Assembly: GCF_020422885.1 (NCBI RefSeq)
Contig: NZ_CP084622.1
Coordinates: 1,879,001-1,943,000 of the forward strand
DNA length: 64,000 bases
From: Mesobacillus sp. S13
Lineage (GTDB): Bacteria > Bacillota > Bacilli > Bacillales > Cytobacillaceae
Reading direction: 5' to 3'
Below the pieces are notes generated by a model. The model was not told the origin of the DNA. It was given only the letters and a program-made list of their open reading frames with translations, and did no database searches. The translations under genes were made by a program, and so were the position numbers. Positions 32,991 to 60,205 of the stretch are shown piece after piece. Within the stretch, counting starts at the first letter, position 1; each line of letters opens with the position of its first letter.

Positions 32991-33049
32991 AACAACTAGA
33001 AAACGTTATAGTAACAGTCCAGGAATATCACCGGAAAGGAGAGAGGATC

Positions 33050-34212: not shown

Positions 34213-34218
34213 TGCTTG

Positions 34219-35899: not shown

Positions 35900-35913
35900 G
35901 GGGGTACATATCT

Positions 35914-36687: not shown

Positions 36688-36723
36688 GGAAAGTATTCAA
36701 TCTACTTAAAGGAGATGTTAAGC

Positions 36724-38241: not shown

Positions 38242-38246
38242 TCACG

Positions 38247-38289
38247 AGGCGAGCACTCTATGATCCGGGTGCTCGCCTTTCAATTTTTA
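38247..38289 (+). terminator. terminator inside the paa gene cluster
   Basis: Perfect 10-bp stem AGGCGAGCAC / GTGCTCGCCT, 12-base loop and T-rich tail; it separates paaK-ALDH from paaHJ, though readthrough is possible. Confidence 0.85.
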
Positions 38290-38308
38290 TGATCAGGAGG
38301 AGTATATA

Positions 38309-39172: not shown

Positions 39173-39183
39173 GGGGGATGGCA

Positions 39184-40392: not shown

Positions 40393-41169
40393 ATGGACAA
40401 CATAAAATTCCAGAAAGAGCAGCATATTGCATATGTGACGATCGACCGCCCAGAATCACTGAACTGCTTCAATTATGAGACTCTTCGGGAACTCGGGGAT
40501 TTAGTAGACAGTCTGCATACAGATAGCGACGTCCGAGTGGTCATTTTTACCGGTGCAGGCGAGAAAGCCTTCAGCGCAGGAGCGGACTTGAAGGAAAGGA
40601 AGCATCTTACTGAGGAAGAAGTGCGACGGAATGTGAAGAAGATTCGTGATGTATTCAGTGCAATCGCTGAACTTCCGCATCCAACGATTGCTGCAGTTAA
40701 CGGCTTTGCCTTTGGCGGCGGCTTCGAATTGATGCTTGCCTGCGATTTTAAAATTGCCGCAGACAGTGCCTTAATGGGGATGACGGAAGTTAGCTGGGGA
40801 ATCATTCCGGGGGCAGGGGGAACACAGCGCCTTTCAAGGCTGATTGGTGAGATGAAAGCGAAGGAGTTGATTTTTACAGCTAGAAAAATTTCTGCTGAGA
40901 AAGCTTTTGAACTCGGGATTCTTACTGCTGTGGAATCAAAAGAGAATGTTATCAGAGCCAGCAAGGAACTAGCCGGAGAAATCCTCCAGAATGCACCGAT
41001 TGCAGTAAGGCAGGCGAAGTATGCCATCCAGCATGGCAGCAGCACCGACCTGCAGACTGGTCTGGCAATTGAGTCCAAAGCTTATGAAGTAACGATTCCA
41101 ACCAAGGACCGTGTTGAAGCACTGAATGCCTTCAGTGAAAAACGCAAGCCTGTTTTTACTGCTCAATAA
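40393..41169 (+). CDS. enoyl-CoA hydratase/isomerase family protein
   Basis: A third crotonase of the cluster (258 aa) with [15 protein letters not shown] and both catalytic glutamates (E112, and E132 in MTEVSWGI), so a hydratase or hydrolase activity is plausible. It begins right after the paaJ stop. Since no PaaZ hydratase is present, this enzyme is a candidate for oxepin-CoA hydrolysis, but the assignment is inference; it may duplicate PaaF. Confidence 0.85.
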
Positions 41170-41199: not shown

Positions 41200-41300
41200 G
41201 CTTTTTGAGTAAAAAGTTTTTGCAAAATAATGATTATACTGTAAAATGTTCTATAACGGTTTTATTACGTACAATAAAAACGGACGAGGATGACATAAGC

Positions 41301-42176
41301 TTGAATACTAGATCAATGATTTTTACCTTATACGGTGACTATATCTCCCATTATGGGAGTAAGATTTGGATTGGCAGCCTGATTCGGCTGCTGAATGAAT
41401 TTGGCCACAATGACCAATCGGTGAGAGCGGCGATTTCCCGCATGAACAAGCAAGGCTGGGTACAGGCCGAAAAGATTGGCAACAAGAGTTATTATTCTCT
41501 GACTCCTCGCGGCCAAAAAAGGATCGACGAGGCAGGCAAGCGTATCTTTAAATTGAAGCCAGAGGAATGGGACGGAAAATGGAGAATCCTTATGTACACG
41601 ATTCCTGAGGAAATCCGCAATGTTCGTGACGAGCTGCGTAAAGAACTGATTTGGAGCGGATTCGGTTCGATGTCGAACAGTTTCTGGATTTCAGCCAATA
41701 ATCTCGAAAGACAAGTCAGGGATCTGATCGAGAAATACGAAATCGAGCAATATGTTGATTTCTTTGTTGCTGAGTACAAAGGGCCGCATGAAAATCTGCG
41801 CCTAGTCGAAAAAAGCTGGGACCTGAAGGAGATCAATGCGAAGTACCAGGAATTTATCAGTGAGTACAGCCAGAAATACATCATTGATAAAAACAAAATC
41901 CAGAAGGGCAGCATGTCTGACGCAGAATGCTTCGTCGAACGCACGAAGCTGGTCCATGAATACAGGAAGTTCCTCTTCTTCGACCCGGGCCTTCCTGAGG
42001 AGCTTTTGCCGGAAAAATGGCTCGGAAGCCACGCTGCCGCATTGTTCAGCGAATACTACAAAGAGCTAGCAGAACCCGCATCCCGCTTTTTCGAATCCGT
42101 CTTCAAAGAAGGAAACGAAATCAAACATAAAGACGTGGACTATAACGTAATGGACCACCCATATATACTAGAATAG
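41301..42176 (+). CDS. paaX: PaaX-family transcriptional repressor
   Basis: A GntR-like winged-helix repressor that in other bacteria releases paa promoters when it binds phenylacetyl-CoA. The frame is open from 41205, but PaaX proteins start with the NTRSMIFTLYGDYI segment, and the TTG at 41301 places it at the N-terminus (291 aa) with GAGGATGA upstream. DNA-binding residues lie within about 20-75 (LNEFGHNDQSVRAAISRMNK). It stands in its own unit between terminators. The leader at 41250-41275 has a degenerate TATAACGGTT, weakly like the shared AACGTTATA element. It is the only visible candidate regulator for that element. Confidence 0.93.
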   Translation: MNTRSMIFTLYGDYISHYGSKIWIGSLIRLLNEFGHNDQSVRAAISRMNKQGWVQAEKIGNKSYYSLTPRGQKRIDEAGKRIFKLKPEEWDGKWRILMYTIPEEIRNVRDELRKELIWSGFGSMSNSFWISANNLERQVRDLIEKYEIEQYVDFFVAEYKGPHENLRLVEKSWDLKEINAKYQEFISEYSQKYIIDKNKIQKGSMSDAECFVERTKLVHEYRKFLFFDPGLPEELLPEKWLGSHAAALFSEYYKELAEPASRFFESVFKEGNEIKHKDVDYNVMDHPYILE

Positions 42177-46628: not shown

Positions 46629-46669
46629 TTGACTTTAAATTATTGCTGGTGTTAATATAACGTTATATT
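46629..46669 (+). promoter_or_regulatory. promoter and palindromic operator of the TrpXYZ-like importer
   Basis: TTGACT (46629-46634), 18 bases, extended -10 TGTTAATAT (TAATAT at 46653-46658). The perfect 16-bp palindrome AATATAACGTTATATT (46654-46669) overlaps the -10, a position expected for a repressor. Its core is the same as in the paa promoter palindrome. The remainder of the gap (46417-46628) shows nothing I can support. Confidence 0.6.
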
Positions 46670-46699
46670 TACGGTGTCTATAGTGAATATCATACTTTT

Positions 46700-46828: not shown

Positions 46829-47827
46829 ATGAAAAAATCAGTAAAAGCTATTTCTCTTGTTCTTGCCAGTGCCTTGTTCATGGCTGGCTGCGGAGGGAAT
46901 GAAGCATCAAATGGTTCTTCAGACAAAGATCAGTACAAGATTGGCCTGACTCAATTCGCAGAGCATCCATCGCTTGATGCCGCAACTGAGGGGTTTAAAA
47001 AAGCACTTGAGGACAAAGGATTCAAAGAGGGTGACAATGTAACGTATGATTTCCAGAACGCACAGGCAGACATGAATAACACAGCAAGCATTGCTAATAA
47101 TTTTGTCGGCGATAAAGTGGACCTCATCTTCGCTAATGCTACACCAAGCGCTGTTGCAGCATTGAATGCGACGAAAGATATTCCAATCATTTTCACTTCT
47201 GTGACGGACCCTGTTGGTGCAGGACTTGTCGAAGCATTCGATAAGCCTGGTGACAATATCACAGGAACTACCGACAACCATCCGGATGCAACTAAAAAGA
47301 CGGTAGATTTCATGACGAATGAAATTGGAGCCAAGAAGATTGGTGTGATCTACAACGCTGGGGAGCAGAACTCTGAAGTCCAGCTGAAGGAAGTCAAGAA
47401 GCTTGCAGAAGCGAATGGAGCGAAGGTTGTTGAAGCCTCCATCTCAACTTCAGCTGAAGTTAAGCAGGCTGCAGAATCTCTTGTCGGACGCGTTGATGCC
47501 ATCTATGTTCCTACGGATAATACAGTCGTATCTGCACTTGAATCTGTTATTTCTGTAGCTAATGGCAAAAAGATCCCATTATTCGTTGGTGAGCTTGATT
47601 CGATGAAGCGAGGAGCAGTTGCTGCCAGCGGTTTCAATTACTATGACATTGGTTACCAGTCAGGCTTGATGGCTGCTGAAATTTTATCAGGCAACAAGAA
47701 AGCTTCTGAGATCCCTGTTGAACTTCCGAAATCATTAACACTTACAATCAACAAAAAAGCCGCTGAGGAGCAAGGTGTTGAAGTCAAGGAAGCATGGGGA
47801 GACGACGCTGAGTTTTACGAAGAATAA
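46829..47827 (+). CDS. TrpX-type ABC transporter substrate-binding lipoprotein
   Basis: A 332-residue lipoprotein with an N-terminal signal and lipobox (LFMAGC, lipidated C21), followed by a Ser/Asn-rich tether and a periplasmic-binding-like fold of the ABC_sub_bind family (PF04392). Family members in Streptococcus (TrpX) are linked to aromatic amino acids. The start ATG follows AAGGGGG. Permease and ATPase genes follow in the same operon. The context among Phe/Tyr catabolic genes makes uptake of an aromatic amino or keto acid likely, but this is inference. Confidence 0.92.
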   Translation: MKKSVKAISLVLASALFMAGCGGNEASNGSSDKDQYKIGLTQFAEHPSLDAATEGFKKALEDKGFKEGDNVTYDFQNAQADMNNTASIANNFVGDKVDLIFANATPSAVAALNATKDIPIIFTSVTDPVGAGLVEAFDKPGDNITGTTDNHPDATKKTVDFMTNEIGAKKIGVIYNAGEQNSEVQLKEVKKLAEANGAKVVEASISTSAEVKQAAESLVGRVDAIYVPTDNTVVSALESVISVANGKKIPLFVGELDSMKRGAVAASGFNYYDIGYQSGLMAAEILSGNKKASEIPVELPKSLTLTINKKAAEEQGVEVKEAWGDDAEFYEE

Positions 47828-47845
47828 GAGAAAGGATGATTCAAC

Positions 47846-48877
47846 TTGTTTACTTCAATATTTGGAGCATTTGAGTCCGGCATTATCTATGCCATCATGG
47901 CTCTGGGTGTATACTTATCCTTTCGGGTACTTGATTTTCCGGATTTGACGGTTGATGGCAGCTTCGTAACTGGAGCTGCGGTCGCCGCCATCATGATTGT
48001 AAATGGAGCGAATCCATTTGCTGCTACGATGGTAGCAATGGTTGCAGGTTTCATTGCTGGATGCTTGACAGGCTTCATTCATACAGTCGGTAAGGTCAAT
48101 GCGCTTCTGTCGGGAATCCTGATGATGATCGCCTTGTATTCTATCAATCTAAGAATCATGGGCAAATCAAATGTACCGCTGCTGAATACCGATACTGCCA
48201 TGACAGCGGTAAGGGACTTTTTCGAAAAAACGGGAATTGACGGTTTCTTCAATGGAATCCTGACGGCAGTCGGACTTGGCGACAGTCTCCCGAGAACATG
48301 GGGAATCCTGCTGTTCATGATTGTCGTCACGCTGGCAATCAAATTCCTTACGGATGCTTTCCTTAAAACAGAACTTGGACTGGCAATCCGGGCAACTGGC
48401 GACAACAAAAGAATGATCCGCAGTTTTTCTTCTAATACGAACCTGATGATCATCCTAGGTCTTGGCCTTTCAAATGCGATGGTAGCTTTTTCTGGCGCAT
48501 TGATCGCCCAGCAGGGTGGTTTTGCGGACGTTGGTATGGGGATCGGGATGATTATCATCGGTCTTGCGTCTGTCATCATCGGTGAGGCTTTGTTCGGTAC
48601 AAAATCGATTGCTAGAACAACGCTCGCTGTTATTGGCGGAGCGATCATCTATCGAATCGTAGTCACACTAGCCCTAAGGGTGGAGTTCCTTGAGCCAGGC
48701 GACATGAAGCTGATCACGGCTATTATCGTCATAATGGCACTGACTGCACCGAAAATGATAGATAGCTACAAAGAGAAAAAACGGAAGGTGAAAAGACAGC
48801 TTGAGCACATGAAGATGTCAGCTGTTCCTTCTGAAGGAAAGGGTGAAGCTGGTGCTGCACTTAAATCAGATTCATAG
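47846..48877 (+). CDS. TrpY-type ABC transporter permease
   Basis: A membrane permease of 343 residues with about eight to nine hydrophobic segments and the BPD_transp_2-like layout used by ribose/branched-chain amino acid and TrpXYZ importers. A conserved cytoplasmic stretch GLAIRATGDNKRMIRSF is the ATPase-contact region. The C-terminal tail is charged. The start is TTG 47846 after AAAGGATGA. The last 26 bases overlap the ATPase gene if GTG 48852 is its start. Confidence 0.9.
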   Translation: MFTSIFGAFESGIIYAIMALGVYLSFRVLDFPDLTVDGSFVTGAAVAAIMIVNGANPFAATMVAMVAGFIAGCLTGFIHTVGKVNALLSGILMMIALYSINLRIMGKSNVPLLNTDTAMTAVRDFFEKTGIDGFFNGILTAVGLGDSLPRTWGILLFMIVVTLAIKFLTDAFLKTELGLAIRATGDNKRMIRSFSSNTNLMIILGLGLSNAMVAFSGALIAQQGGFADVGMGIGMIIIGLASVIIGEALFGTKSIARTTLAVIGGAIIYRIVVTLALRVEFLEPGDMKLITAIIVIMALTAPKMIDSYKEKKRKVKRQLEHMKMSAVPSEGKGEAGAALKSDS

Positions 48878-49646
48878 AGTCTTCAATGAGGGTACTCCCG
48901 ATGAGAAAATCGCCCTGGATAATATAAATCTCACCTTGGAAAAAGGAGACTTCGTCACTGTCATCGGGAGTAACGGGGCCGGAAAGTCAACGTTAATGAA
49001 CGTCATTTCCGGTGTCATGATACCAGACCATGGACAGGTAGAACTGGATAGTAAGGATGTAACATACATGAGCGAATATAACCGCTCGAAATTGATTGGC
49101 CGAGTATTCCAGGATCCGATGGCTGGCACTGCTCCAAGCATGACAATTGAAGAAAACCTGGCGATTGCCTATTCAAGGAACAAGCGTCGCTCTCTGCGCC
49201 GAGGCGTCACGAAAAAACGCCGTGAACTTTTCCAGGAGGTACTTGAATCATTGCACCTGGGACTTGAAAATCGCTTGAATGCGAAGGTTGGCCTGTTATC
49301 AGGAGGAGAACGCCAGGCCTTATCCCTGCTGATGGCAACATTCACTGAGCCGTCCATTCTTTTACTGGATGAGCATACCGCGGCACTTGATCCTGCTCGT
49401 GCCGAGTTAATCACCAATCTAACAAAAGAAATCGTCGATAAATACCATCTCACTACACTGATGGTTACGCACAACATGCAGCAGGCACTCGATCTCGGCA
49501 ACAGGCTGATTATGATGGACAAAGGCCAGATCATCCTCGAGGTGAACGAAGAACAAAAAGCAAAGCTGACAATCGAAGACTTGCTCAATGAGTTCCAGCG
49601 GATCCGTGGTACAAAACTGGCAAGCGACCGCGCATTGTTAGGATAG
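48852..49646 (+). CDS. TrpZ-type ABC transporter ATP-binding protein
   Basis: The ATPase of the importer, about 264 residues. Walker A is GSNGAGKST, the signature LLSGGERQALSL, Walker B ILLLDEHTAALDP, with the unusual DEHTAALDP in place of DEPT that is common in this subgroup. Two GTG starts are possible: 48852 (AGGGTGA five bases upstream, preferred) or 48843, both inside the end of the permease gene. The protein begins MLHLNQIHRVFNEGT. It is the last gene of the importer operon. Confidence 0.9.
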   Translation: MLHLNQIHRVFNEGTPDEKIALDNINLTLEKGDFVTVIGSNGAGKSTLMNVISGVMIPDHGQVELDSKDVTYMSEYNRSKLIGRVFQDPMAGTAPSMTIEENLAIAYSRNKRRSLRRGVTKKRRELFQEVLESLHLGLENRLNAKVGLLSGGERQALSLLMATFTEPSILLLDEHTAALDPARAELITNLTKEIVDKYHLTTLMVTHNMQQALDLGNRLIMMDKGQIILEVNEEQKAKLTIEDLLNEFQRIRGTKLASDRALLG

Positions 49647-49683
49647 AAAAAATGCCAGGAATATAAAAATTTGCACATTTGAA

Positions 49684-49729
49684 AAAGTCGAAGTGATTCC
49701 ATTATTTTGGAATTATTCCGGCTTTTTTT
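49684..49729 (+). terminator. terminator of the importer operon
   Basis: Imperfect long hairpin: outer AAGTCG / CGGCTT, inner GATTCC / GGAATT, followed by a seven-T run. Confidence 0.7.
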
Positions 49730-49753
49730 ATTGTTATATCTTTAACAGCACCA

Positions 49754-49887
49754 GGTTGATTGGAACGGAAGGTGCGTAGACTCCTGCGGGATCAGCGGGA
49801 CAGGTGAGACCCCGCAGGCGCTTTAGCGCTGAGGAGGCTCACCGCACGCCCCGCGGAAAGCGAAGCAACCTGGAGTGGAAATCAACC
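49754..49887. repeat. 134-bp structured dispersed repeat of Bacillaceae type
   Basis: A GC-rich element bounded by the inverted repeat GGTTGATT / AATCAACC. Inside are nested inverted repeats: CCTGCGGG / CCCGCAGG, GCGCTTTAGCGC, GGTGAG / CTCACC and GCGGG / CCCGC. It has no coding potential. From memory, near-identical sequences occur in many copies in Bacillaceae genomes, usually between genes. It could move as a non-autonomous element or act as a structured RNA or transcription-end signal; none of these is shown here. Confidence 0.8.
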
Positions 49888-49971
49888 GTCCCAAATTCTA
49901 ATCATAACTTTTGGAGTCAAATATTATACCAATATTATTTTTAAGAAAATACCAAAATTTCTTACAATTTA

Positions 49972-50023
49972 TTGACCGTTTATTTAACGAAATGTTATGA
50001 TAGCGTTAAATAAACGTTATACA
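49972..50023 (+). promoter_or_regulatory. promoter and inverted-repeat operator of the phenylalanine dehydrogenase operon
   Basis: TTGACC (49972-49977), 18 bases, extended -10 TGTTATGAT (TATGAT at 49996-50001). A perfect 12-bp inverted repeat, GTTTATTTAACG (49978-49989) and CGTTAAATAAAC (50004-50015), surrounds the -10. The second arm continues as AAACGTTATAC, sharing AACGTTATA with the paa and importer operators. Confidence 0.6.
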
Positions 50024-50051
50024 TATTTGCAACTTGGAAAGGTGGGATATG

Positions 50052-50441
50052 ATGCGAGATGGTTTGATCGCTGGGCATACGGCTTCCATCGATGTCATTG
50101 TTACACCAGATATGTTTGCCCGCTTTGAGGGAAAAGTCGTCCACCCGGTATACTCCACTGTTTCGATGGTGTATCACATGGAGTGGGTATCGAGGCAGAT
50201 TATTATTCCCTTTTTAGAGGATCATGAAGAAGGTATGGGCGGCGCTGTGACAGTAAAACACATCGCTCCATGTATCGAGGGTGCTGAGGTGACTGTAACC
50301 GCAACCGTTACGGGACTAGAGGGAAATACAATCCTTACCGACGTAAAGGCTGAAAGCAAAGGCCGTTTGATCGGACTGGGAAAAGTCAAGCAAGTTGTCC
50401 TTCCTAAAGAGAAGATAAAGGAATTACTTACAGGCAGCTAA
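50052..50441 (+). CDS. hot-dog thioesterase, FlK (fluoroacetyl-CoA thioesterase)-like
   Basis: A 129-residue hot-dog-fold protein resembling FlK, a thioesterase that removes toxic acyl-CoA. The likely catalytic region is STVSMVYHMEW (Thr and Glu) with a His in VKHIAPC. ATG 50052 is chosen for its spacing from AAAGGTGG; ATG 50049 and TTG 50034 are in frame. As the first gene of an operon that should make phenylacetyl-CoA, it may release phenylacetate or other acids from CoA when it accumulates. This role is inference. Confidence 0.82.
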   Translation: MRDGLIAGHTASIDVIVTPDMFARFEGKVVHPVYSTVSMVYHMEWVSRQIIIPFLEDHEEGMGGAVTVKHIAPCIEGAEVTVTATVTGLEGNTILTDVKAESKGRLIGLGKVKQVVLPKEKIKELLTGS

Positions 50442-50442
50442 A

Positions 50443-50471
50443 ATTTTTGCGCAAAAATGAAAGCGCTAACA
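50443..50471. promoter_or_regulatory. palindrome and perfect CcpA cre site inside the operon
   Basis: The 16-bp palindrome ATTTTTGCGCAAAAAT (50443-50458) runs into TGAAAGCGCTAACA (50458-50471), which matches the cre consensus TGWAANCGNTNWCA at every specified position. It lies between the thioesterase and phenylalanine dehydrogenase genes, so glucose could lower expression of the downstream genes by a roadblock. Confidence 0.7.
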
Positions 50472-50501
50472 TGGTTTAACGGAATAAAGGGGGAAAGAAC
50501 A

Positions 50502-51608
50502 ATGGATATGTTCGAACAAATTCGTGAACACGAGCAGGTAGTATTTTGTAATGATGAAGCAACGGGACTTAAGGCGATTATTGCAATCCATAGCACACGG
50601 TTGGGGCCGGCTTTGGGCGGATGCCGTATGTACCCTTATAAATCAGTTGATGATGCACTTGAAGATGTACTGCGGCTTTCTAAAGGCATGACGTACAAAT
50701 GTGCTGCGGCTGACGTCGACTTCGGTGGAGGGAAGGCTGTTATCATTGGCGATCCTACTAAGGATAAGAGCCCGGAATTATTCAGGGCATTTGGCCAGTT
50801 TGTAGAGTCGATCCAGGGCCGTTTTTATACGGGAACAGATATGGGGACAGATCCGGAAGACTTTGTCCATGCACTAAAAGAAACGAATTGTATCGTTGGT
50901 GTCGATGAAGTTTATGGCGGCAGCGGTGATTCTTCAGTACCAACGGCTCAAGGCGTCATCTTTGGTTTGCAGGCAACGAGCAAGGCGCTTTGGGATACAG
51001 ATGATTTATCAGGGAAATCCTATGCAATCCAGGGGCTGGGCAAGGTTGGCTACAAGGTAGCAGAGTACCTGCTGGAAAATGGGGCAGACCTGTATGTAAC
51101 AGATATCAACCAGAAAGCGATCGACCAAATTGTCCAGAAAGCGAAGGATATGGGAGCGGGCATCAAGGTTGTAAACAGTGACGAAATCTATTCCCAGCCT
51201 GCAGACGTTTTCATTCCATGCGCAATGGGAGGAATCATTAACGATGAGACGATTCCACAGCTTCAGGTCAAAGCGGTGGTTGGGTCAGCGAATAATCAGC
51301 TCAAAGAAGAAAGACACGGTCACATCCTTCAGGAGAAAGGGATTCTTTATGCGCCTGATTATATTGTCAACGCTGGCGGGTTGATCCAGGTGGCGGATGA
51401 GCTATATTCACCTAACAAGGAACGAGTCTTAAAGAAGACGAAGGCTATCTATAATTCTCTTTTAAATATTTACAGGCAGGCAGAGGGTGAAGGAATCACC
51501 ACTGTAGAAGCGGCGAATAAATTCTGTGAAAACCGCATCGAAGCCAGAACAAGACGCAATAGCTTCTTCTCTCATATGAAGCGTCCTAAATGGGCAGTAA
51601 GGATGTAA
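50502..51608 (+). CDS. phenylalanine dehydrogenase
   Basis: An NAD-dependent oxidative deaminase that converts phenylalanine to phenylpyruvate and ammonia. The 368-residue sequence closely follows Bacillus PheDH as I recall it: [31 protein letters not shown] (catalytic Lys region), [18 protein letters not shown], Rossmann motif [11 protein letters not shown], and the NSFFS-KPKW-type tail. Leucine dehydrogenases have GGTRMW and KNAAAGLNLGG in these places. ATG 50502 is chosen (AAGGGGG upstream); the longer frame from 50457 lacks a site. 2-Oxoacid dehydrogenase genes follow, which fits use of the phenylpyruvate. Confidence 0.9.
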
Positions 51609-51641
51609 TAGATTCATAGACTTTAAAAAAAGGGTGAGCCG

Positions 51642-52709
51642 ATGGAAAAGGATTTTCCGATTTTTCAAGTGATGGACCAAAACGGAAACATTGTGTCTGA
51701 GGAATATAAGGAATTGGTGACCGAGGAACGAGTGAAAAAGTTTTATTCTGAAATGGTAAGGATCCGGACGCTGGACAGGAAATCAATCAGTCTCCAGCGG
51801 CAGGGCAGAATCGGAACATATGCGCCATTTGAAGGGCAGGAAGCATCCCAGGTAGGAACGGCTCTCGCGCTTGACAGTGAAGACTGGATGTTTCCGACCT
51901 ACCGTGATCATGGAGCGGCTACAGTGTTCGGCCACTCGCTGAGGAATATTTTATTGTTCTGGAACGGACGGAACGAGGGCTGTGTGCCGCCGGATGGAAA
52001 AAAAATCTTCCCGCCAGCTATACCAATCGCCACACAAATTCCGCACGCTGCGGGTGCTGCTTTTGCAGAAAAACAAAAAGGCACAAAGAATGCGGCGATT
52101 TGTTATTTCGGCGATGGTGCGACATCAGAAGGGGACTTTCATGAAGGCTTGAATTTTGCCAGCGTCTTCAAATCTCCGGTCGTCTATTTTTGCCAGAATA
52201 ATCAATACGCGATATCCGTCCCAATCAGCAAACAAATGAATTCCGCAACGATCGCACAAAAAGCTCTTGCATATGATATTCCGGGCGTTAGAGTGGATGG
52301 AAACGATGTTTTTGCCGTTTTTGCTGAAACAGAAAAGGCTTTAGAGCGTGCACGCAATGGCGATGGGCCAACACTTATTGAAGCAATGACGTGGCGGTAT
52401 GGATCCCATACAACCGCTGATGATGCCACAAAATATCGTGACCAGGGAGAAAGTGCTCTTAAGCGAATGGAAACCGATCCATTGCTAAGACTGGAACGCT
52501 GGCTGAAAAATGAAGGGCTTTTCGATGAAGCATGGGTGAAGGAAGTAGAAGAGCAGGCAGCTGCAGAAATTGACGCAGCTGTACAGGAAATGGAAAAGTT
52601 CCCTAAAGCTGACCCTGCCGTGATCTTTGATTATGTTTTTGAAAAGCCTACGTGGACAATTGAGAAGCAAAAACGGGAATACCTTGAGCTGATCGGAGGT
52701 GAAGCATGA
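51642..52709 (+). CDS. 2-oxoacid dehydrogenase E1 alpha subunit
   Basis: The thiamine diphosphate-dependent decarboxylase alpha chain of a pyruvate/branched-chain 2-oxoacid dehydrogenase-type complex, 355 residues. The ThDP motif begins GDGATSEGDFHEGLNFA and ends CQNNQYAIS, giving the usual GDG-NN spacing; the phosphorylation-loop region YGSHTTADDATKYR is also present. The start follows GGGTGAG, 33 bases after the phenylalanine dehydrogenase gene. With that neighbour, phenylpyruvate is a likely substrate, giving phenylacetyl-CoA; branched-chain or other oxoacids are alternatives. Confidence 0.93.
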   Translation: MEKDFPIFQVMDQNGNIVSEEYKELVTEERVKKFYSEMVRIRTLDRKSISLQRQGRIGTYAPFEGQEASQVGTALALDSEDWMFPTYRDHGAATVFGHSLRNILLFWNGRNEGCVPPDGKKIFPPAIPIATQIPHAAGAAFAEKQKGTKNAAICYFGDGATSEGDFHEGLNFASVFKSPVVYFCQNNQYAISVPISKQMNSATIAQKALAYDIPGVRVDGNDVFAVFAETEKALERARNGDGPTLIEAMTWRYGSHTTADDATKYRDQGESALKRMETDPLLRLERWLKNEGLFDEAWVKEVEEQAAAEIDAAVQEMEKFPKADPAVIFDYVFEKPTWTIEKQKREYLELIGGEA

Positions 52710-53704
52710 TGGAAATAGCGCTTCAGACTAAGACTTTGACCCTGGTCCAGGCGATCACAGATGGACTTGATACGATGCTTGGTGAAAGCAAGGAGGTCAT
52801 CCTTCTTGGCGAAGATATCGGAAAAAACGGCGGGGTTTTCCGGGCAACCGATGGCTTGCAGGAAAAGTATGGAGAGGACCGCGTCATAGACACTCCTTTA
52901 AGTGAAGCTGGTTTTGTTGGTGCAGCGATCGGCATGGCAGTGAATGGGTTCAGGCCAGTTGTGGAAATCCAGTTCCTTGGCTTCATCTATCCTGCCTATG
53001 AACAAATCATGACCCATGCTTCAAGACTTCGAATGAGAACAATGGGTCACTTCACTGTGCCGATGGTCATTCGTGCTCCATATGGCGCTGGTGTTCGTGC
53101 ACCTGAAATTCATTGTGACAGCACGGAATCGCTTTTTACCCATATGCCAGGCATGAAAGTGGTCTGTCCATCCAATGCCTACGATGCAAAAGGGCTCATG
53201 ATTGCTGCCATCGAAGATCCCGATCCTGTTCTTTTCCTAGAACCAATGAGAAGCTACCGTTCCTCTCGTAATGAGGTACCTGAAGGGAAGTACGTAGTTG
53301 AAATAGGCAAAGGAAAGAAATTGACTGAAGGGGAAGATGTGACGGTCATCTCCTGGGGAGCCATGGTTCCGGTTGCAATGAAGGCTGCAGAAGAGATGAA
53401 TCAGAAGGGAATCAATTGTGAGGTCATTGATTTAAGAACACTCTATCCGATTGACAAGGACCTTGTCATAGAGTCAGTCCAGAAAACCGGGCGGACGGTA
53501 ATAGTTCATGAAGCCCATGCGACAGGAGGCACTGGCAGTGATTTGATTTCATTGATCAATGATGAAGCATTCCTTTACCAAAAGGCTCCTGCAGAAAGAG
53601 TGACAGGCTATGATACGCCTGTGCCGTATTTTGGGTTTGAAGATCATTATCTGCCGACGCCGAAAAGAGTCGCAGCTGCAATAGAGAAAGTAATGAAGTT
53701 TTAG
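52706..53704 (+). CDS. 2-oxoacid dehydrogenase E1 beta subunit
   Basis: The beta chain (332 aa) that completes the E1 active site: LVQAITDGLDTML, LLGEDIGKNGGVFRAT, DTPLSEAGFVGAAIGMA, RAPYGAGVRAPEIH and the EAHATGGTGSDL region are typical. Its ATG overlaps the E1 alpha stop by four bases; a second ATG follows at once. The E2 gene begins 11 bases after its stop. The product should act as an alpha2-beta2 tetramer in the cytoplasm. Confidence 0.94.
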   Translation: MMEIALQTKTLTLVQAITDGLDTMLGESKEVILLGEDIGKNGGVFRATDGLQEKYGEDRVIDTPLSEAGFVGAAIGMAVNGFRPVVEIQFLGFIYPAYEQIMTHASRLRMRTMGHFTVPMVIRAPYGAGVRAPEIHCDSTESLFTHMPGMKVVCPSNAYDAKGLMIAAIEDPDPVLFLEPMRSYRSSRNEVPEGKYVVEIGKGKKLTEGEDVTVISWGAMVPVAMKAAEEMNQKGINCEVIDLRTLYPIDKDLVIESVQKTGRTVIVHEAHATGGTGSDLISLINDEAFLYQKAPAERVTGYDTPVPYFGFEDHYLPTPKRVAAAIEKVMKF

Positions 53705-53715
53705 GAGGCGTGCCG

Positions 53716-55080
53716 ATGGTTGAAGTAAAGCTCCACGATATTGGGGAAGGCATGACCGAAGCGGACATCAATTGTTACCTGGTGAAGCCGGGGGATTTCG
53801 TCAAGGCAGATGATCCTTTGGTGGAGGTCCAGACAGACAAGATGACCGCAGAGATTCCTGCTCCCCGCTCAGGTGTAATTAAAGAATTGCTGTTATCACC
53901 GGGGCAAACGGTACAGGTAGGGACTACCCTGCTGATCATGGAAGACCGTTCCGGTGGAGATCATTCAGCAGAGTTCCAGAAGGTAAATGACATAATAAAG
54001 AAAGAATCCCAGCCTGCGGAAGCTGCAATTGCTGTATTGGACAGACCCGCTCAAGTAAAGGTTCCTGTAGGTGTGAGTGCGAGATTGGGGCAGATTCTTG
54101 CATCTCCTTATACAAGGAAAGTTGCACGCGAAAATGGCGTCAATATTATGGAGATTAAAGGAACCGGTCCAGCAGGCCGAATCACCGAAGAGGATGTATT
54201 GGCCTTTGTTAAATTAAGAGAGGCTGGGGTTGCGAACACTTCGGAACCAGGCTCCGAGCAGCAGGTTCCGAACGTTTCGAAAGCAGGTTCTGAGAATCTG
54301 GTTCCGAAGGTTTCGGAAGCAAGTTCCGAACTGCAGGCTCCGAATGTTTCAGAATCTGGTTCCGAAGAACAGCATACTGTCGTTCACAAGGATACAATGC
54401 CATTCCGCGGCCGCCGCAAACAGATTGCGAAAAAGATGGTCCAATCCATGTACACCATCCCTCACTGCACCCATTTTGAGGAGATTGATGTTAGCGAGTT
54501 GATCGCTTTAAGGGGAGAAATCAAGGAAGCCGGAAACTCAATTTCTGCGACCGCTTTCTTCATTAAAGCTCTTTCGATTGGGTTAAAAGAATTCCCTGTG
54601 TTTAATGCAAAGCTCGATGAAGAAAATGAAAGCATCCAGCTGCTGCGTGAGCATCATGTCGGGATTGCTGTGGACACTCCGGATGGATTGATTGTACCGG
54701 TTATCCGCAATGTGGAGAAAAAGAACTTGAAGCAAATCCATAATGAAATGAAGCGTCTGACAAAGCTTGCACTTGATGACAAGCTAACGGTCAAGGATAT
54801 ATCGGGCGGTACCTTCACAATAAGCAATGTCGGTCCGCTGGGCGGCAGCATTGGTGCCACACCGATCATCCAGCATCCGCAGACAGCGCTCGTTTCATTC
54901 CATAAGACAAAGAAGCGGCCAGTTGTCACGGATCAAGATGAAATTGCAATCAGGTCAATTATGAATCTATCAATGGCATTTGACCATAGAGTCGCAGACG
55001 GTGCAACAGCTGTGGCTTTCACCAACCGTTTCGCACAGCTGATTGAAAACCCAAAATTGATGCTGCTGGAATTGATGTAA
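53716..55080 (+). CDS. 2-oxoacid dehydrogenase E2 (lipoyl acyltransferase)
   Basis: The acyltransferase core that passes the acyl group to CoA, 454 residues from ATG 53716 (TAGGAGG seven bases upstream; GTG 53710 is too close). Domains: one lipoyl domain (lipoyl Lys K42 in QTDKMTAE), the E1/E3-binding domain near 115-155 (ASPYTRKVARENGV, then GTGPAGRITEEDV), a linker with three and a half copies of a 12-residue repeat of the type SExGSExxVPNV, and the catalytic domain with DHRVADGAT near the end. An E3 gene is not present; the complex probably borrows one from elsewhere. With PheDH in the operon, phenylacetyl-CoA is the inferred product. Confidence 0.94.
   Translation: MVEVKLHDIGEGMTEADINCYLVKPGDFVKADDPLVEVQTDKMTAEIPAPRSGVIKELLLSPGQTVQVGTTLLIMEDRSGGDHSAEFQKVNDIIKKESQPAEAAIAVLDRPAQVKVPVGVSARLGQILASPYTRKVARENGVNIMEIKGTGPAGRITEEDVLAFVKLREAGVANTSEPGSEQQVPNVSKAGSENLVPKVSEASSELQAPNVSESGSEEQHTVVHKDTMPFRGRRKQIAKKMVQSMYTIPHCTHFEEIDVSELIALRGEIKEAGNSISATAFFIKALSIGLKEFPVFNAKLDEENESIQLLREHHVGIAVDTPDGLIVPVIRNVEKKNLKQIHNEMKRLTKLALDDKLTVKDISGGTFTISNVGPLGGSIGATPIIQHPQTALVSFHKTKKRPVVTDQDEIAIRSIMNLSMAFDHRVADGATAVAFTNRFAQLIENPKLMLLELM
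54241..54372 (+). repeat. 36-bp in-frame repeat in the E2 linker
   Basis: Units at 54241-54276, 54277-54312, 54313-54348 and a partial at 54349-54372. Each encodes a 12-residue segment with Ser-Glu, Gly/Ser-Ser-Glu and a Pro, forming a flexible linker between the subunit-binding and catalytic domains. Confidence 0.92.
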
Positions 55081-55138
55081 CAGATAATATGAAAGGCCTC
55101 TTTAGTGCTCAAAAGCATTATAGCTTTACATCGTGCTC

Positions 55139-55166
55139 TTGAGAGTGCAAGGACAATTACTATAAA
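55139..55166 (+). promoter_or_regulatory. candidate promoter of the homogentisate operon
   Basis: TTGAGA (55139-55144), 16 bases, TATAAA (55161-55166), 43 bases before the hppD start. No AACGTTATA element is seen here. Confidence 0.55.
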
Positions 55167-55208
55167 ATTATTTTAAATATTATAAATATTCTTTCGGGAG
55201 GTTTTACA

Positions 55209-56324
55209 ATGCAAGAAAAAGTGATGGTATCTGGCCAAAGTACAGAGGACTTTTTTCCGGTCCAGGATGTTGATTATTTAGAGCTATACGTAGGGAATGC
55301 CAAGCAGGCAGCTCACTTTTTCCAGACGGCTTTCGGTTTTAAGGTAGTTGCATATTCCGGACTTGAGACAGGCAACCGCGAAACAGCGTCCTTTGTACTT
55401 CAACAGCGTAAAATCCGCCTGGTTGTAACTGGAACATACAATGACTCTTCACGCGTTGCTCAGTTTGTAAAGACTCATGGAGATGGCGTCAAGGATATCG
55501 CGCTTGCAGTTGATGATGTCGATAAGGCGTATGAGGGAGCGGTTAAGCGAGGAGCAATCGAGATCCAGCTGCCGCATGAGGTTTCTGATGAGCACGGTAC
55601 GTTAAAAAAGGCAGTCATCGGTACATATGGTGACACGATCCATACTTTAGTTGAAAGAAAAGATTATAAAGGTATTTTCATGCCTGGTTATGTTGAGCAT
55701 GAATCGGCTGTTCCTGTGAATGACGCAGGGTTCATCGGCATCGACCACGTTGTTGGCAATGTTGAGAGAATGGAAGAATGGGTTAACTATTATGCGAATG
55801 TCATGGGCTTCAAGGAGATGAAGCACTTTACAGATAAGGACATCGTGACAGAGTATTCAGCGCTGATGTCCAAGGTTATGCACAATGGCGGCCGCATCAA
55901 ATTCCCGATCAATGAGCCTGCAGAAGGAAAGCGCAAATCGCAAATCCAGGAATACCTTGAGTTCTACAACGGACCTGGTGTCCAGCATCTTGCGATTTTG
56001 ACAGAAGACATCGTCAGCACTGTAGCACAATTGCGTAAAAATGGTGTGGAATTCTTGAACACTCCTGATTCTTACTACGAAATGCTATCTGAGCGCGTCG
56101 GAGAAATTGATGAAGAAATCGATAAACTTAAAGAGCTTAGTATATTAGTAGACCGTGATGACGAAGGCTATTTGCTGCAGATCTTCACAAAACCGATCGT
56201 CGACCGTCCGACGCTGTTCATTGAGATCATCCAGCGTAAAGGTGCTAGAGGCTTCGGTGAAGGAAACTTCAAAGCGCTATTCGAATCAATCGAGCGTGAA
56301 CAGGAAAGACGCGGCAACCTTTAA
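55209..56324 (+). CDS. hppD: 4-hydroxyphenylpyruvate dioxygenase
   Basis: HppD turns 4-hydroxyphenylpyruvate into homogentisate with O2 and Fe(II). The 371-residue protein has two vicinal-oxygen-chelate halves; the iron ligands lie in IDHVVGNVERM (His), GVQHLAILT (His) and TLFIEIIQRKG (Glu), with GYLLQIFTKP between. The start follows GGGAGG. It heads an operon with an aminotransferase, a flavin reductase-like gene, a fumarylacetoacetate hydrolase-like gene and homogentisate dioxygenase, so tyrosine degradation is clear. Confidence 0.97.
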   Translation: MQEKVMVSGQSTEDFFPVQDVDYLELYVGNAKQAAHFFQTAFGFKVVAYSGLETGNRETASFVLQQRKIRLVVTGTYNDSSRVAQFVKTHGDGVKDIALAVDDVDKAYEGAVKRGAIEIQLPHEVSDEHGTLKKAVIGTYGDTIHTLVERKDYKGIFMPGYVEHESAVPVNDAGFIGIDHVVGNVERMEEWVNYYANVMGFKEMKHFTDKDIVTEYSALMSKVMHNGGRIKFPINEPAEGKRKSQIQEYLEFYNGPGVQHLAILTEDIVSTVAQLRKNGVEFLNTPDSYYEMLSERVGEIDEEIDKLKELSILVDRDDEGYLLQIFTKPIVDRPTLFIEIIQRKGARGFGEGNFKALFESIEREQERRGNL

Positions 56325-56393
56325 TAGCCGGGAGAGAAGGGGGCGGTTCGCTCCCTTTTCGTTATAAGTGCGACTGATTATGGGGGGATCATC

Positions 56394-57485
56394 TTGAATG
56401 TAAAAGCAAGAGCAGAACTGGAAGGCATCACGCCATATGCCCTCGGCCGAAGCATCGAGGAAATCAAGGAACAGTATGGAATCAAGACAGTAAGGAAGCT
56501 TTCGGATAATGAAAATGTGTATGGCACCTCGCCAAAGGTCCAGAAAGCAATCATGCAGGCATCTGCTAACCTGGCATTATATCCGGACGGAATGACATCA
56601 GGAATTATAGAGAAACTGTCCGTACATTATCAATTGGATCAAAAGCATTTACTTGTTTCCAATGGTTCGGAGGAAATCATCCGCCTGCTGACAAGAGCGT
56701 ATATTGATAAAAATGACGATGCTGTGATGGCTGAGGTCACTTTCCCGAGATATAAAACGAATGTGATGATCGAGGGCGGCAGAGCTGTAACTATACCGAT
56801 GATTGACGGCAGGCATGACCTCAAAAAAATGCTGGAAGCAATCAGCGAAAAAACGAAGATGGTTTTTGTCTGCAATCCGAATAATCCAACCGGGACGATT
56901 GTGGCGAAGCAGGAACTGCTTGAGTTTTTCGGCAATGTACCTTCAAATGTACTGATTATCATGGACGAAGCTTATTTTGAATATGCTGATTCCGAGGAAT
57001 ATCTGGATACGATGCCATTGCTTAAGCAATATGAAAATCTTGTGATCCTAAGGACTTTTTCGAAAATCTACGGCCTTGCCAGTTTGCGTGTTGGCTATGG
57101 CATCATGCATGAAGACGTTGCGAAAGAGCTTCACAAAGTCAGGGATGTATTCAATGTCAACCAGCTGGCACAGGCGGCAGCGATGGCAGCGCTTGAGGAT
57201 CAGTCATTCGTCCAGGACTGTTCAGCTAAAAATAGCGCAGAAAGAGACTTCCTGAAAGGTAAGTTCAAAGAGTTGGAGATTGATAGTTTCCCATCGCAAT
57301 CCAACTTCTTGTTTGCCTTCACGAATAGGCCGATTATCCAGACGCTGACGGAAAATGGCGTCCTCGTCAGACAGATGCAGCTTTCGGGATACAAGGAAGC
57401 ATTCAGAATCACCCTCGGCAGCCGTGAAGACCATGAGTTCATCCTCCGGATCGTCAGCCAGCTTTTTCATGAAAGGGCGGTGTAA
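56394..57485 (+). CDS. HisC-family aminotransferase, likely aromatic aminotransferase
   Basis: A PLP-dependent fold-type I aminotransferase of 363 residues related to histidinol-phosphate aminotransferase. The PLP Lys is in ILRTFSKIYGLASLRVGYG, and NPNNPTGT and DEAYFEY are typical. In B. subtilis HisC-type enzymes also transaminate Tyr and Phe. Its place between hppD and the homogentisate genes suggests it makes 4-hydroxyphenylpyruvate from tyrosine. The start is TTG 56394 after GGGGGGA. It is separated by three bases from the next gene. Confidence 0.9.
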   Translation: MNVKARAELEGITPYALGRSIEEIKEQYGIKTVRKLSDNENVYGTSPKVQKAIMQASANLALYPDGMTSGIIEKLSVHYQLDQKHLLVSNGSEEIIRLLTRAYIDKNDDAVMAEVTFPRYKTNVMIEGGRAVTIPMIDGRHDLKKMLEAISEKTKMVFVCNPNNPTGTIVAKQELLEFFGNVPSNVLIIMDEAYFEYADSEEYLDTMPLLKQYENLVILRTFSKIYGLASLRVGYGIMHEDVAKELHKVRDVFNVNQLAQAAAMAALEDQSFVQDCSAKNSAERDFLKGKFKELEIDSFPSQSNFLFAFTNRPIIQTLTENGVLVRQMQLSGYKEAFRITLGSREDHEFILRIVSQLFHERAV

Positions 57486-57488
57486 GCC

Positions 57489-58100
57489 TTGGAAATAAAA
57501 ACAGATCAACTTGAATGGAGAGACGCATACAAGCTATTACAAGGCTCTGTCCTGCCACGGCCCATTGCCTTTGTTTCCAGCCACGATGAAAACGGGAACG
57601 CCAATCTGGCTCCATTCAGTTTTTTTACTGTCATCAGCGCGAATCCGATGATGGTCTGCTTTTCGCCGATGAGAAGAGGGACTGATGGAGCGAAAAAGGA
57701 TACTTTGCAAAATATTGAAGCCACAAAGGAGTTCGTCATTAATATTGTCAGCGAGGAATTCGTTCAGCAGATGAATGACTGTGCGACTGAATTTCCTTCA
57801 GATGTCGATGAATTCGAGGCATCTGGACTGACCAAGGCTGACAGTATGGCAGTAAAACCATCGCGGGTAAAAGAATCGAAGGTACAATTAGAATGCTTGT
57901 TGGATCAGGTCCTCCACTTTGGTGGCGAAGAAGCCGGAGCTGGCAGTCTGGTCATCGGGAAGGTCGTCCATGTACATGTCGAAGATGAACTGTATGAAAA
58001 CGGACGAATCAATTCGGAAAAATTGAATCCGGTGGGAAGGCTGGCAGGCGCCACATACACTCAGCCGCTGGCAAAAACCTTTGAGCTTCAAAGAAAATAG
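57489..58100 (+). CDS. flavin reductase-like (FMN split-barrel) protein
   Basis: A 203-residue protein with the flavin reductase-like split barrel: LPRPIAFVSSHDENGNANLAPFSFF binds FMN in this family, with VGRLAGATY near the C-terminus. It starts at TTG 57489, three bases after the aminotransferase stop. It lies exactly between the hppD/aminotransferase genes and the ring-cleavage genes. It may supply reduced flavin, or may have another role such as dealing with maleylacetoacetate, for which no isomerase gene is seen. Function not assigned. Confidence 0.85.
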   Translation: MEIKTDQLEWRDAYKLLQGSVLPRPIAFVSSHDENGNANLAPFSFFTVISANPMMVCFSPMRRGTDGAKKDTLQNIEATKEFVINIVSEEFVQQMNDCATEFPSDVDEFEASGLTKADSMAVKPSRVKESKVQLECLLDQVLHFGGEEAGAGSLVIGKVVHVHVEDELYENGRINSEKLNPVGRLAGATYTQPLAKTFELQRK

Positions 58101-58108
58101 GTGATTTC

Positions 58109-59032
58109 ATGAAATTCATAACTTTTACGAAAAAAGACGGAACCGTAAGTGCTGGCTGGATCAATTCACGCAATGAAGTTGTCGATATGAATGAAGTATC
58201 AAACGGGATGTTGCCTGATAATATACTGGCATTCATCGAAAACCACGAGCAATTTATGGAATACATCGAAAAAAATAAGGGACTGATTGAGACAGGCAAT
58301 GGTTCTTATCTTCTGGAAGATGTAACCTTGAACGCGCCGCTGCCTAATCCGAAGAGCGTCCGCGATTTTTATGCATTCGAGCAGCATGTGAAAACAGCCA
58401 GGGAGAACCGAGGCCTTGAAATGATTCCTGAATGGTATGAAATCCCGGTGTTTTATTTCACCAACCATCTTGCCGTCAAAGGCCCTGAGGAAGAAATCAG
58501 GCGGCCGCAGAACTGTGAATGGATGGACTATGAACTTGAAATTGCTTGTGTTATCGGCAAGGAAGGACGGAATATCAAGGCTGAGGATGCTGAACAGCAT
58601 ATTTTTGGCTTTTTTATCATGAATGACTGGAGTGCCCGCGATTTGCAGCGGAAGGAAATGAAGGTCGGACTTGGGCCGGCGAAGGGCAAGGATTTTGCGA
58701 CATCATTCGGTCCCTGCCTGGTAACGAAGGATGAATTGATGCCCCGCAAAGCGGCGAAAGGCTTCAATTTGCAAATGACAGCAAGAGTGAACGGAAAAGA
58801 GCTTTCAAACGGCAATGTGAAGGACCTTTATTATTCCTTCGGAGAAATGATTGAGCGCGCTTCCGAGGGTACGACACTGTATCCTGGTGAGGTAATCGGT
58901 TCAGGCACAGTGGGAACAGGATGTATCCTCGAATTGGGAACGGATATTCATCGCTGGCTCGAGCCCGGCGATGAAGTAGAACTTGAGATTGAAGGACTTG
59001 GTGTCCTGAGAAATAAAATTATTCAAGATTAG
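58109..59032 (+). CDS. fumarylacetoacetate hydrolase family protein
   Basis: A FAH-fold C-C hydrolase of 307 residues. Metal-binding acidic residues appear in MDYELEIACVIG (E-x-E) and NDWSARDLQ (Asp), with GKDFATSFGPCLVT as the active-site segment and TVGTGCILELG near the end. In this operon it should split fumarylacetoacetate (or maleylacetoacetate) into fumarate/maleate and acetoacetate. The start follows AGGTGAT. It lies eight bases after the flavin reductase-like gene and 15 before hmgA. Confidence 0.92.
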   Translation: MKFITFTKKDGTVSAGWINSRNEVVDMNEVSNGMLPDNILAFIENHEQFMEYIEKNKGLIETGNGSYLLEDVTLNAPLPNPKSVRDFYAFEQHVKTARENRGLEMIPEWYEIPVFYFTNHLAVKGPEEEIRRPQNCEWMDYELEIACVIGKEGRNIKAEDAEQHIFGFFIMNDWSARDLQRKEMKVGLGPAKGKDFATSFGPCLVTKDELMPRKAAKGFNLQMTARVNGKELSNGNVKDLYYSFGEMIERASEGTTLYPGEVIGSGTVGTGCILELGTDIHRWLEPGDEVELEIEGLGVLRNKIIQD

Positions 59033-59047
59033 AAAGAAGGTGTTTAT

Positions 59048-60205
59048 ATGTATTACCGCCAGCTGGGAGAAATCCCGAAGAAACGCCATACGATTTTTAA
59101 AAAGGAAGACGGTTCTCTTTTCCGCGAGCAGGTAATGGGGACGAAGGGCTTTTCCGGCACGCAGTCAATCCTTTATCATCACCATATGCCGACTGAGGTA
59201 GTAAAAAGTGAATTGATCGGCAGTTACCTGCCTGAATATGAGGAACAGGAATCACTGAACCACAGGCACTTCCTTACCGACCAGATTTCGAAAACCGGAG
59301 ATGCCTTAAGTGGAAGGGAATATATTCTCGGTAATGACGATCTTCTGATTGGGTTTGCGAATATCAATGAACCAATGAAGCAATTCTACCGCAATGGTGA
59401 TGGTGATGAAATGTTCTTTTTCCATCATGGCTCCGGCAAGGTGGAGACGATGTTCGGTACATTGAACTATCGTCCTGGTGATTATGTCGTTATTCCGATT
59501 GGAACAATATATCGAGTGGTCCCTGATGATTCTGAAATGACTAAAGCGCTGATTGTAGAATCGTTCAGCCAGATCACGACTCCTCGACGTTACCGTAATG
59601 AATATGGCCAGCTGCTCGAGCACAGCCCATTCTGTGAACGTGATATTCGCGGGCCGGAAATGCTGGAAACCTTCTCTGAAAAAGGGGAGCATGAGGTGAT
59701 CACGAAGACACGCGGCCATATGCATCGCCACGTATTGAACCATCATCCGCTTGATGTCGTCGGCTGGGACGGTTATTTGTATCCTTGGGCGTTCAATATT
59801 GAGGATTTCGAGCCAATTACTGGCCGGATCCATCAGCCGCCTCCGGTCCACCAGACGTTCGAAGGCCATAATTATGTGGTATGTTCCTTCGTGCCAAGAC
59901 TTTACGATTATCATCCTGAAGCGATTCCAGCTCCATATTACCACAGCAACGTCAATAGCGATGAGCTACTGTACTATGTGGAAGGAAACTTCATGAGCCG
60001 CAAAGGAATCAAAGAAGGTTCGATTACATTGCATCCGAGCGGAATCCCGCACGGACCGCATCCGGGCAAGACAGAAGCAAGCATCGGCAAAAAAGAAACG
60101 CTTGAGCTTGCCGTCATGATCGATACATTCCGCCCGTTGAAAACGGTGAAGAAAGCCAAGGACATCGAAGACGGCCAGTATATGTATACTTGGATCGAAA
60201 AATAA
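59048..60205 (+). CDS. hmgA: homogentisate 1,2-dioxygenase
   Basis: HmgA opens the homogentisate ring to maleylacetoacetate with Fe(II) and O2. The 385-residue protein shows the two-cupin layout of the family: the N-terminal HHHMPTEVV and NGDGDEMFFFHHG segments, MHRHVLNHHPLDVVGWDGYLYPW, and the iron-site segments YYHSNVNSDELLYYVEGNF and HPSGIPHGPHPG. It is shorter than the eukaryotic enzyme but usual for bacteria of this group. It is the last gene of the operon and is followed by a terminator. Confidence 0.95.
   Translation: MYYRQLGEIPKKRHTIFKKEDGSLFREQVMGTKGFSGTQSILYHHHMPTEVVKSELIGSYLPEYEEQESLNHRHFLTDQISKTGDALSGREYILGNDDLLIGFANINEPMKQFYRNGDGDEMFFFHHGSGKVETMFGTLNYRPGDYVVIPIGTIYRVVPDDSEMTKALIVESFSQITTPRRYRNEYGQLLEHSPFCERDIRGPEMLETFSEKGEHEVITKTRGHMHRHVLNHHPLDVVGWDGYLYPWAFNIEDFEPITGRIHQPPPVHQTFEGHNYVVCSFVPRLYDYHPEAIPAPYYHSNVNSDELLYYVEGNFMSRKGIKEGSITLHPSGIPHGPHPGKTEASIGKKETLELAVMIDTFRPLKTVKKAKDIEDGQYMYTWIEK

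Follow-up and report, generated by a model that had tools for sequence, protein, structure and literature searches.

A predicted phenylpyruvate dehydrogenase operon tied to the phenylacetyl-CoA pathway in Mesobacillus sp. S13

An operon of Mesobacillus sp. S13 very probably encodes a dedicated route from phenylpyruvate to phenylacetyl-CoA, catalyzed by a 2-oxoacid dehydrogenase complex. It lies in a 64-kb window (contig positions 1879001-1943000; the whole stretch of DNA that was analyzed, and to which all coordinates below refer) of a 4.81-Mb single-contig genome. Genes for an FlK-type acyl-CoA thioesterase, phenylalanine dehydrogenase (PheDH), and the E1alpha, E1beta, and E2 subunits span positions 50034-55080, with gaps of at most 33 bases or overlaps between them. 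A phenylpyruvate-directed complex, as an initial annotation of this DNA had proposed, is predicted from sequence comparisons by three largely independent lines: the gene neighborhood of E1 and its co-occurrence with paaA, an operator shared with the phenylacetate (paa) operon, and a residue signature of E1alpha together with its placement in a clade of its own.

All genes named by the initial annotation were found where it had placed them, with PheDH, E1alpha, E1beta, and E2 in a row on the forward strand. The PheDH gene (50457..51608) codes for the domains of ELFV dehydrogenases (PF02812+PF00208); it starts at 50457 or 50502, as many relatives are 368 amino acids (aa) long, corresponding to the latter start, and others 383 aa. 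E1alpha (51642..52709; PF00676) contains the thiamine pyrophosphate motif and is followed by E1beta (52706..53704; PF02779+PF02780) and by E2 (53710..55080), with lipoyl (PF00364), E3-binding (PF02817), and catalytic (PF00198) domains and a DHRVADG motif at residue 425. These are the features of an E1alphabeta-E2-type 2-oxoacid dehydrogenase. Directly before PheDH, the thioesterase gene heads the operon (50034..50441; PF22636, 4.3e-33) and had gone unmentioned in the annotation. The nearest solved relative of its product is PDB 2cwz (4.2e-27), which we take to be Thermus TTHA0967. The latter appears as a hypothetical protein whose operon, controlled by PaaR, also contains a phenylacetyl-CoA ligase (PMC6651687, Table 5).

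We propose that phenylalanine would be imported by a TrpX-like ABC system and deaminated to phenylpyruvate by PheDH, as its family and residue signature suggest. E1 and E2, with an E3 that the pyruvate dehydrogenase (PDH) or branched-chain 2-oxoacid dehydrogenase (BCKDH) operon may supply, would then convert phenylpyruvate to phenylacetyl-CoA by oxidative decarboxylation. The product would be consumed by PaaABCD and the enzymes of the lower paa genes, as is established for this family. The likeliest role of the FlK-type thioesterase is that of a CoA release valve, which would probably split surplus phenylacetyl-CoA into CoA and phenylacetate, and PaaK could reload the latter.

The window E1-E2 is a third complex, alongside separate PDH and branched-chain complexes. 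Searching the genome with the E1 family yielded six places, including the window E1alpha, a bkd operon (L007; read as ptb, LeuDH, buk, lpd, bkdAA, bkdAB, bkdB), and a complete pdh operon with E3 (L008). The remaining matches were a 959-codon frame, presumably the 2-oxoglutarate enzyme, and two weak ones below 30 bits. Housekeeping PDH genes lie beside an RNase J gene in Bacillus subtilis, and we considered that the window E1/E2 might be the housekeeping enzyme beside RNase J; this was ruled out by the full pdh operon with E3, which itself has a further RNase J gene and one resembling a deformylase nearby (both labeled by eye). All 30 genomes that we picked from the order had separate orthologues of PDH E1alpha (at least 69% identity) and BCKDH E1alpha (at least 65%). 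In a quick tree, computed with 95 of 204 rows in hand, the E1alpha family formed its own clade apart from PDH and BCKDH. The PDH rows likewise grouped in a clade of their own (SH-aLRT 100), so the window E1alpha is not an orthologue of PDH, and neither its separate position nor its context makes it one of BCKDH.

The occurrence of the E1 family was compared with that of paaA (TIGR02156) in an even sample of 299 genomes of the order, using an E1 cutoff of 390 bits that was chosen after the scores were known. The family was found in 123 genomes. Both genes were present in 116 genomes, E1 only in 7, paaA only in 10, and neither in 166 (Fisher P = 3.7e-61); cutoffs of 330, 440, and 480 bits gave P values of 3.4e-59, 1.5e-54, and 4.5e-47. 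The two genes were on one contig in 101 of the 116 genomes and within 25 kb of each other in 92 of those 101. Shared descent is insufficient to account for this link, because it persists within the 20 genera in which E1 is variable (with genomes assigned to genera by hand transcription): all 49 E1-positive genomes of these genera have paaA (44) or hpaF (5), and the E1-negative ones have paaA in 3 of 44 and hpaF in 4 of 44 cases.

The seven E1-positive genomes that lack paaA all carry CHMI (hpaF), a gene present in 54 of the 299 genomes overall, so that paaA or hpaF is found in 123 of 123 E1-positive genomes. In six of these seven loci, genes of the 4-hydroxyphenylacetate (HPA) pathway are near E1-E2, namely those for HpaG and CHMI, joined in two loci by HpaB and HpaE; the seventh (G212) has CHMI on the contig of its E1 gene, at a distance of approximately 19 kb. 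All seven loci have a HisC-type aminotransferase and an alpha/beta hydrolase, and PheDH is absent. In the same quick tree, the HPA-linked E1 proteins group as a single clade (SH-aLRT 100) that is nested inside the paa-linked family. This branch is predicted to run from tyrosine through 4-hydroxyphenylacetyl-CoA to 4-hydroxyphenylacetate.

The order PheDH-E1-E2 is conserved in other genomes. Outside the genus of the window, all E1 matches reaching 390 bits in the 299 genomes gave 118 loci, whose same-strand neighbors within about 10 kb were named by their best match to proteins of the window or of its genome. E1beta was found in 118, E2 in 108, E3 in 102, and PheDH in 99 of these loci; the last count argues that the arrangement of PheDH and E1 is not due to chance. 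A FabK-like gene (89), FlK (86), the substrate-binding protein (SBP) of the importer (63), and HPPD (36) were also recorded, and 83 loci held one or more of the genes paaA-D, paaK, and paaX. When named genomes were scanned with E1alpha, 34 loci were obtained, some of them cut short, with PheDH nearby in 22 and paaA-D, paaK, or paaX in 19; the nearest by E1alpha belong to Mesobacillus and to the ISL strains of Bacillus sp. PheDH, E1, E2, paaK, and paaA are consecutive in Neobacillus, and E1-E2 lie near paaA or paaK in two loci of Alicyclobacillus. One genome (G042; L127, L143, L191) has three E1 genes of the family, two of them approximately 10 kb apart. Two records titled Chryseobacterium and Roseburia (L018, L032), with E1alpha proteins 93% and 60% identical to that of the window, are probably misnamed or contaminated.

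A palindrome with the core TATAACGTTATA was first spotted by eye upstream of paaK and of the importer genes. The exact 12-bp core has two copies in the 4.8-Mb genome, both in the window; with at most one mismatch, it occurs at 17 places, compared with 20 for a reversed control, and weaker matches are therefore at chance level. In the 118 loci, the core was found within two mismatches in 49 of 86 FlK promoters and 39 of 65 SBP promoters, for which 30 control palindromes made up of its letters gave means of 4.6 and 3.9 and largest values of 17 and 12. It also exceeded the controls before paaX (18 of 77; largest control, 8) and FabK (29 of 91; largest, 11), and was not above them in the promoters of HPPD, E1beta, and the ATPase gene. 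From 88 FlK and SBP sites of other genomes, we derived a matrix of 22 columns (consensus GTTAATATAACGTTATATTAAC). Over the window, it returned three top sites on the forward strand: before the importer (46651..46672; score 29.8; exact core), before paaK and the paa operon (30633..30654; score 25.9; exact core), and before FlK-PheDH-E1-E2 (49994..50015; score 21.7), the last accompanied by two weaker overlapping palindrome sites at 49978 and 50005. All other sites scored 14.1 or less, and a first-order random sequence of 640 kb contained a single site reaching 14. As no paa promoter was used in the matrix, the paaK site is an independent match.

Scores of at least 16 were obtained in 85 of 92 loci with FlK or SBP and in 8 of 19 others, counts over the 118 loci that include the training sites. 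The seven HPA-linked loci reached 11.6 at most, and the operator therefore tracks the paa context. In the genome of the window it is common to the paa operon and the PheDH-E1-E2 operon, and its presence before all three transcription units suggests one regulon. Its regulator is probably PaaX, encoded at 41205..42176 on the forward strand (TIGR02277, 346.9 bits; cutoff, 264.55). The nearest PDB chain to this protein, 8a39, is titled aryl-CoA-responsive repressor of phenylacetic acid degradation, and the inducer would probably be phenylacetyl-CoA. A review gives the first pathway intermediate, not phenylacetate, as the inducer of both PaaX and PaaR (PMC9493321).

The third line of evidence comes, besides the clade, from a residue signature of E1alpha. 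At residue 59 of E1alpha, 119 of 120 family members have Thr (the other has a gap), compared with Phe in 31 of 31 PDH and 31 of 31 BCKDH proteins; Thr is also found in 120 of 120 best database relatives of the window E1alpha. An alignment with 1um9 places Thr59 at the position of Phe66alpha in the Thermus enzyme, where a Phe-to-Thr exchange would free space for a phenyl ring. PheDH has Gly126 and Leu309 where the genome's own leucine dehydrogenase (LeuDH) has Ala and Val, and in its family Gly occurs in 100 of 101 proteins, the other having a gap, and Leu in 101 of 101. Mutagenesis work reportedly places these positions in the side-chain pocket, and we take them to separate PheDH from LeuDH; PheDH pocket residues were looked for in PMC8967036 and not found. 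Close relatives of PheDH bear that name at JGI, and many NCBI records call them leucine or Leu/Phe/Val dehydrogenase.

The machine itself is of a known type. The complex shares fold, domains, and the E1alpha/E1beta/E2 layout with PDH of Bacillaceae (pdhABCD), and the nearest solved E1 is that of a PDH (1w85); PDH differs in forming a separate clade, in having Phe at column 59, and in its own operon with E3. The bkd system likewise combines E1alpha, E1beta, and E2 with a nearby amino acid dehydrogenase, LeuDH, but differs by its ptb-leuDH-buk-lpd-bkd context, its separate clade, and Phe at column 59. One-step conversion of arylpyruvates to aryl-acetyl-CoA has been described for the arylpyruvate:ferredoxin oxidoreductases IorAB, Ior1, and HpdDEFG, which differ in enzyme type and in their use of ferredoxin, and decarboxylase routes have also been described (PMC9765128, PMC5577590, and PMC13285125). 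A further close system is PglB and PglC of Streptomyces pristinaespiralis, PDH-like E1 alpha and beta proteins suggested to convert phenylpyruvate to phenylacetyl-CoA in L-phenylglycine biosynthesis (PMC7089894). Two plasmid loci match the gene order of the pgl operon except for an extra MbtH gene. Their E1alpha is approximately 41% identical to that of the window, has Val in place of Phe at the Thr59 column, and was placed with the window family apart from PDH and BCKDH (94/92 support, not starred), on long branches. The pgl genes, however, serve antibiotic biosynthesis beside nonribosomal peptide synthetase (NRPS) genes, and E2 and PheDH are not annotated in the two loci. Compared with these, the window neighborhood does not show the NRPS, PglA, PglD, and PglE genes of a pgl operon. 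We considered the Val residue as independent proof, a case weakened by actinobacterial tree neighbors that also have Val or Leu. In one of them (L040) a HisC-type aminotransferase is adjacent, and no aromatic catabolic genes were seen among the six neighbors scanned in L040 and the four in L042.

The initial annotation had called a phenylpyruvate-specific complex new or little described. Among the papers listed from the open PMC literature, subscription papers being outside the search, no description of a catabolic phenylpyruvate dehydrogenase complex was recognized, nor did any paper join the term "phenylpyruvate dehydrogenase" with phenylacetyl-CoA. The use of such a machine as an arylpyruvate dehydrogenase dedicated to catabolism, under a regulon of its own, did not turn up there either. 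The published PglB/PglC proposal for the same reaction tempers the novelty.

How far the complex is specific for phenylpyruvate may be weighed against a broader role, in which phenylpyruvate, 4-hydroxyphenylpyruvate, and indolepyruvate would be oxidized alike and phenylalanine would be merely one source. The TrpX-like importer, the homogentisate genes directly downstream in the window, and the HPA-linked sister clade, which implies that the fold can take a hydroxylated substrate, are consistent with such an enzyme. The E1 family co-occurs with paaA, however, whose substrate is phenylacetyl-CoA, and its usual neighbor is PheDH (99 of 118 loci), not HPPD (36 of 118). A broad aromatic enzyme is accordingly a serious but unlikely alternative. 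Very improbable is the reading of the complex as an additional pyruvate or branched-chain dehydrogenase, placed near aromatic genes by accident, given the separate PDH and BCKDH in all 30 selected genomes, the clade apart from both, the gene and operator linkage to paa, and the presence of paaA or hpaF with every E1. In its favor, the window E1alpha passes the PDH E1alpha model TIGR03181 of NCBIfam (479.9 versus a cutoff of 411.35), and the named proteins among the 120 best listed relatives are pyruvate or 2-oxoisovalerate dehydrogenase E1alpha. This equivalog model accepts what appears to be a non-PDH protein, and wrong names in public databases may stem from it.

Phenylalanine might also be degraded mainly through phenylacetaldehyde and free phenylacetate by a decarboxylase, an aldehyde dehydrogenase, and PaaK, leaving E1/E2 a minor part or one in biosynthesis, for example in supplying phenylacetyl-CoA. 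Both PaaK and an aldehyde dehydrogenase are encoded in the paa operon, but aldehyde dehydrogenases of such operons usually act on the ring-opened semialdehyde. In addition, the best genome match to decarboxylase family TIGR03393, the one such family searched, scored 115.3 bits against a cutoff of 946. We regard this route as very improbable. No protein reached the cutoff of TIGR03336, the one IorA family sought.

Several observations weigh against or qualify a dedicated phenylpyruvate dehydrogenase route, among them, besides the TIGR03181 match, the retention of paaK in the paa operon behind the same operator. The direct route is supported, and the bypass of free phenylacetate and PaaK envisaged by the initial annotation holds in part: because PaaK is retained with this operator, entry through free phenylacetate would be supplemented and not abolished. 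Similarly, its "full" set is present in three subunits, with E3 absent from the cluster, as no open reading frame of at least 90 aa lies between E2 and HPPD; Lpd (E3) genes exist in both the PDH and the BCKDH operons. Among close relatives, Lpd follows E2 in L017, L019, and L021 and not in L011-L016, L018, and L020, nor in the window; this group has thus recently lost or gained the gene. At the cutoff used, 10 of 126 paaA-positive genomes have no E1, and one of these (G105) carries an incomplete E1 with 66% identity. Regarding the operator, the matrix counts include training sites, the core at up to two mismatches is found 4 times in the window against 1.5 expected, which carries little weight alone, and outside the genus a site scoring at least 13 lies beside paaA in 4 of 11 inspected loci holding paaA, some of which end close to the gene. 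As for E1alpha, column 59 is Leu or Val in four actinobacterial relatives and Thr in one haloarchaeal E1. The pocket role of this position depends on Thermus Phe66, which we take to line the substrate pocket; the one paper listed on the Thermus E1 does not mention Phe66. A plasmid of Haloferax larsenii (L263) carries an aminotransferase-E1alpha-E1beta cluster with Thr at column 59.

The remaining genes of the window agree with the layout of the initial annotation, which had an aromatic-type importer upstream, the tyrosine pathway alongside, and paa genes nearby. The latter, 8 to 20 kb from PheDH-E1-E2, are on the forward strand: paaK (30685..32010; TIGR02155, 627.7 bits, slightly below the cutoff of 646.3), a phenylacetate-CoA ligase gene providing the parallel entry; paaABCD for phenylacetyl-CoA epoxidase (32031..34701; TIGR02156-02159, above cutoffs); and the lower genes (35120..41169), coding for enoyl-CoA hydratases/isomerase, aldehyde dehydrogenase, 3-hydroxyacyl-CoA dehydrogenase, and 3-oxoadipyl-CoA thiolase. 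Between paaX and a peptidase S58 gene lies a tandem repeat (42273-42882) of 11.7 copies of a 52-bp unit with 89% matches. The importer genes, also on the forward strand, encode the SBP (46829..47827), a permease (47846..48877; PF02653), and an ATPase (48843..49646; PF00005). The SBP, whose nearest PDB chain is 6hni, is called only TrpX-like because it scores 287.3 bits with NF041285, below the curated cutoff of 390. Between the ATPase and FlK genes, a GC-rich stretch at 49740-49890 resembles, by eye, a dispersed intergenic repeat of bacilli. Downstream of E2 are genes for HPPD (55209..56324), a HisC-type aminotransferase (56394..57485), a flavin-reductase-like protein (57489..58100), an FAH-like protein (58109..59032), and an HGD-like protein (59048..60205). 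This homogentisate dioxygenase is very divergent (70.8 bits; curated cutoff, 510.75), and no maleylacetoacetate isomerase was recognized among the genes from HPPD to HGD (55209-60205), to which the search was confined. The flavin-reductase-like gene is kept in 35 of the 118 relatives' loci, 36 of which have HPPD.

On balance, we lean toward the view that 123 of the 299 genomes carry, under pyruvate dehydrogenase names, an arylpyruvate dehydrogenase family with two branches: one for phenylpyruvate, linked to PheDH, a thioesterase valve for phenylacetyl-CoA, and the paa regulon, and, nested in the family, one for 4-hydroxyphenylpyruvate, linked to a HisC-type aminotransferase, an alpha/beta hydrolase, and the 4-hydroxyphenylacetate pathway, the pocket being opened for both by the Phe-to-Thr exchange in E1alpha. 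Phenylalanine dehydrogenase of bacilli is a well-used industrial enzyme, and we know of no clear account of what becomes of its product in the cell. If correct, our reading would supply the step that follows this enzyme and would provide an entry into the paa pathway at the CoA level that spares the ATP spent by PaaK. It would also hint at how the PDH fold was retuned for aromatic substrates, and many records named pyruvate dehydrogenase would probably be wrong.

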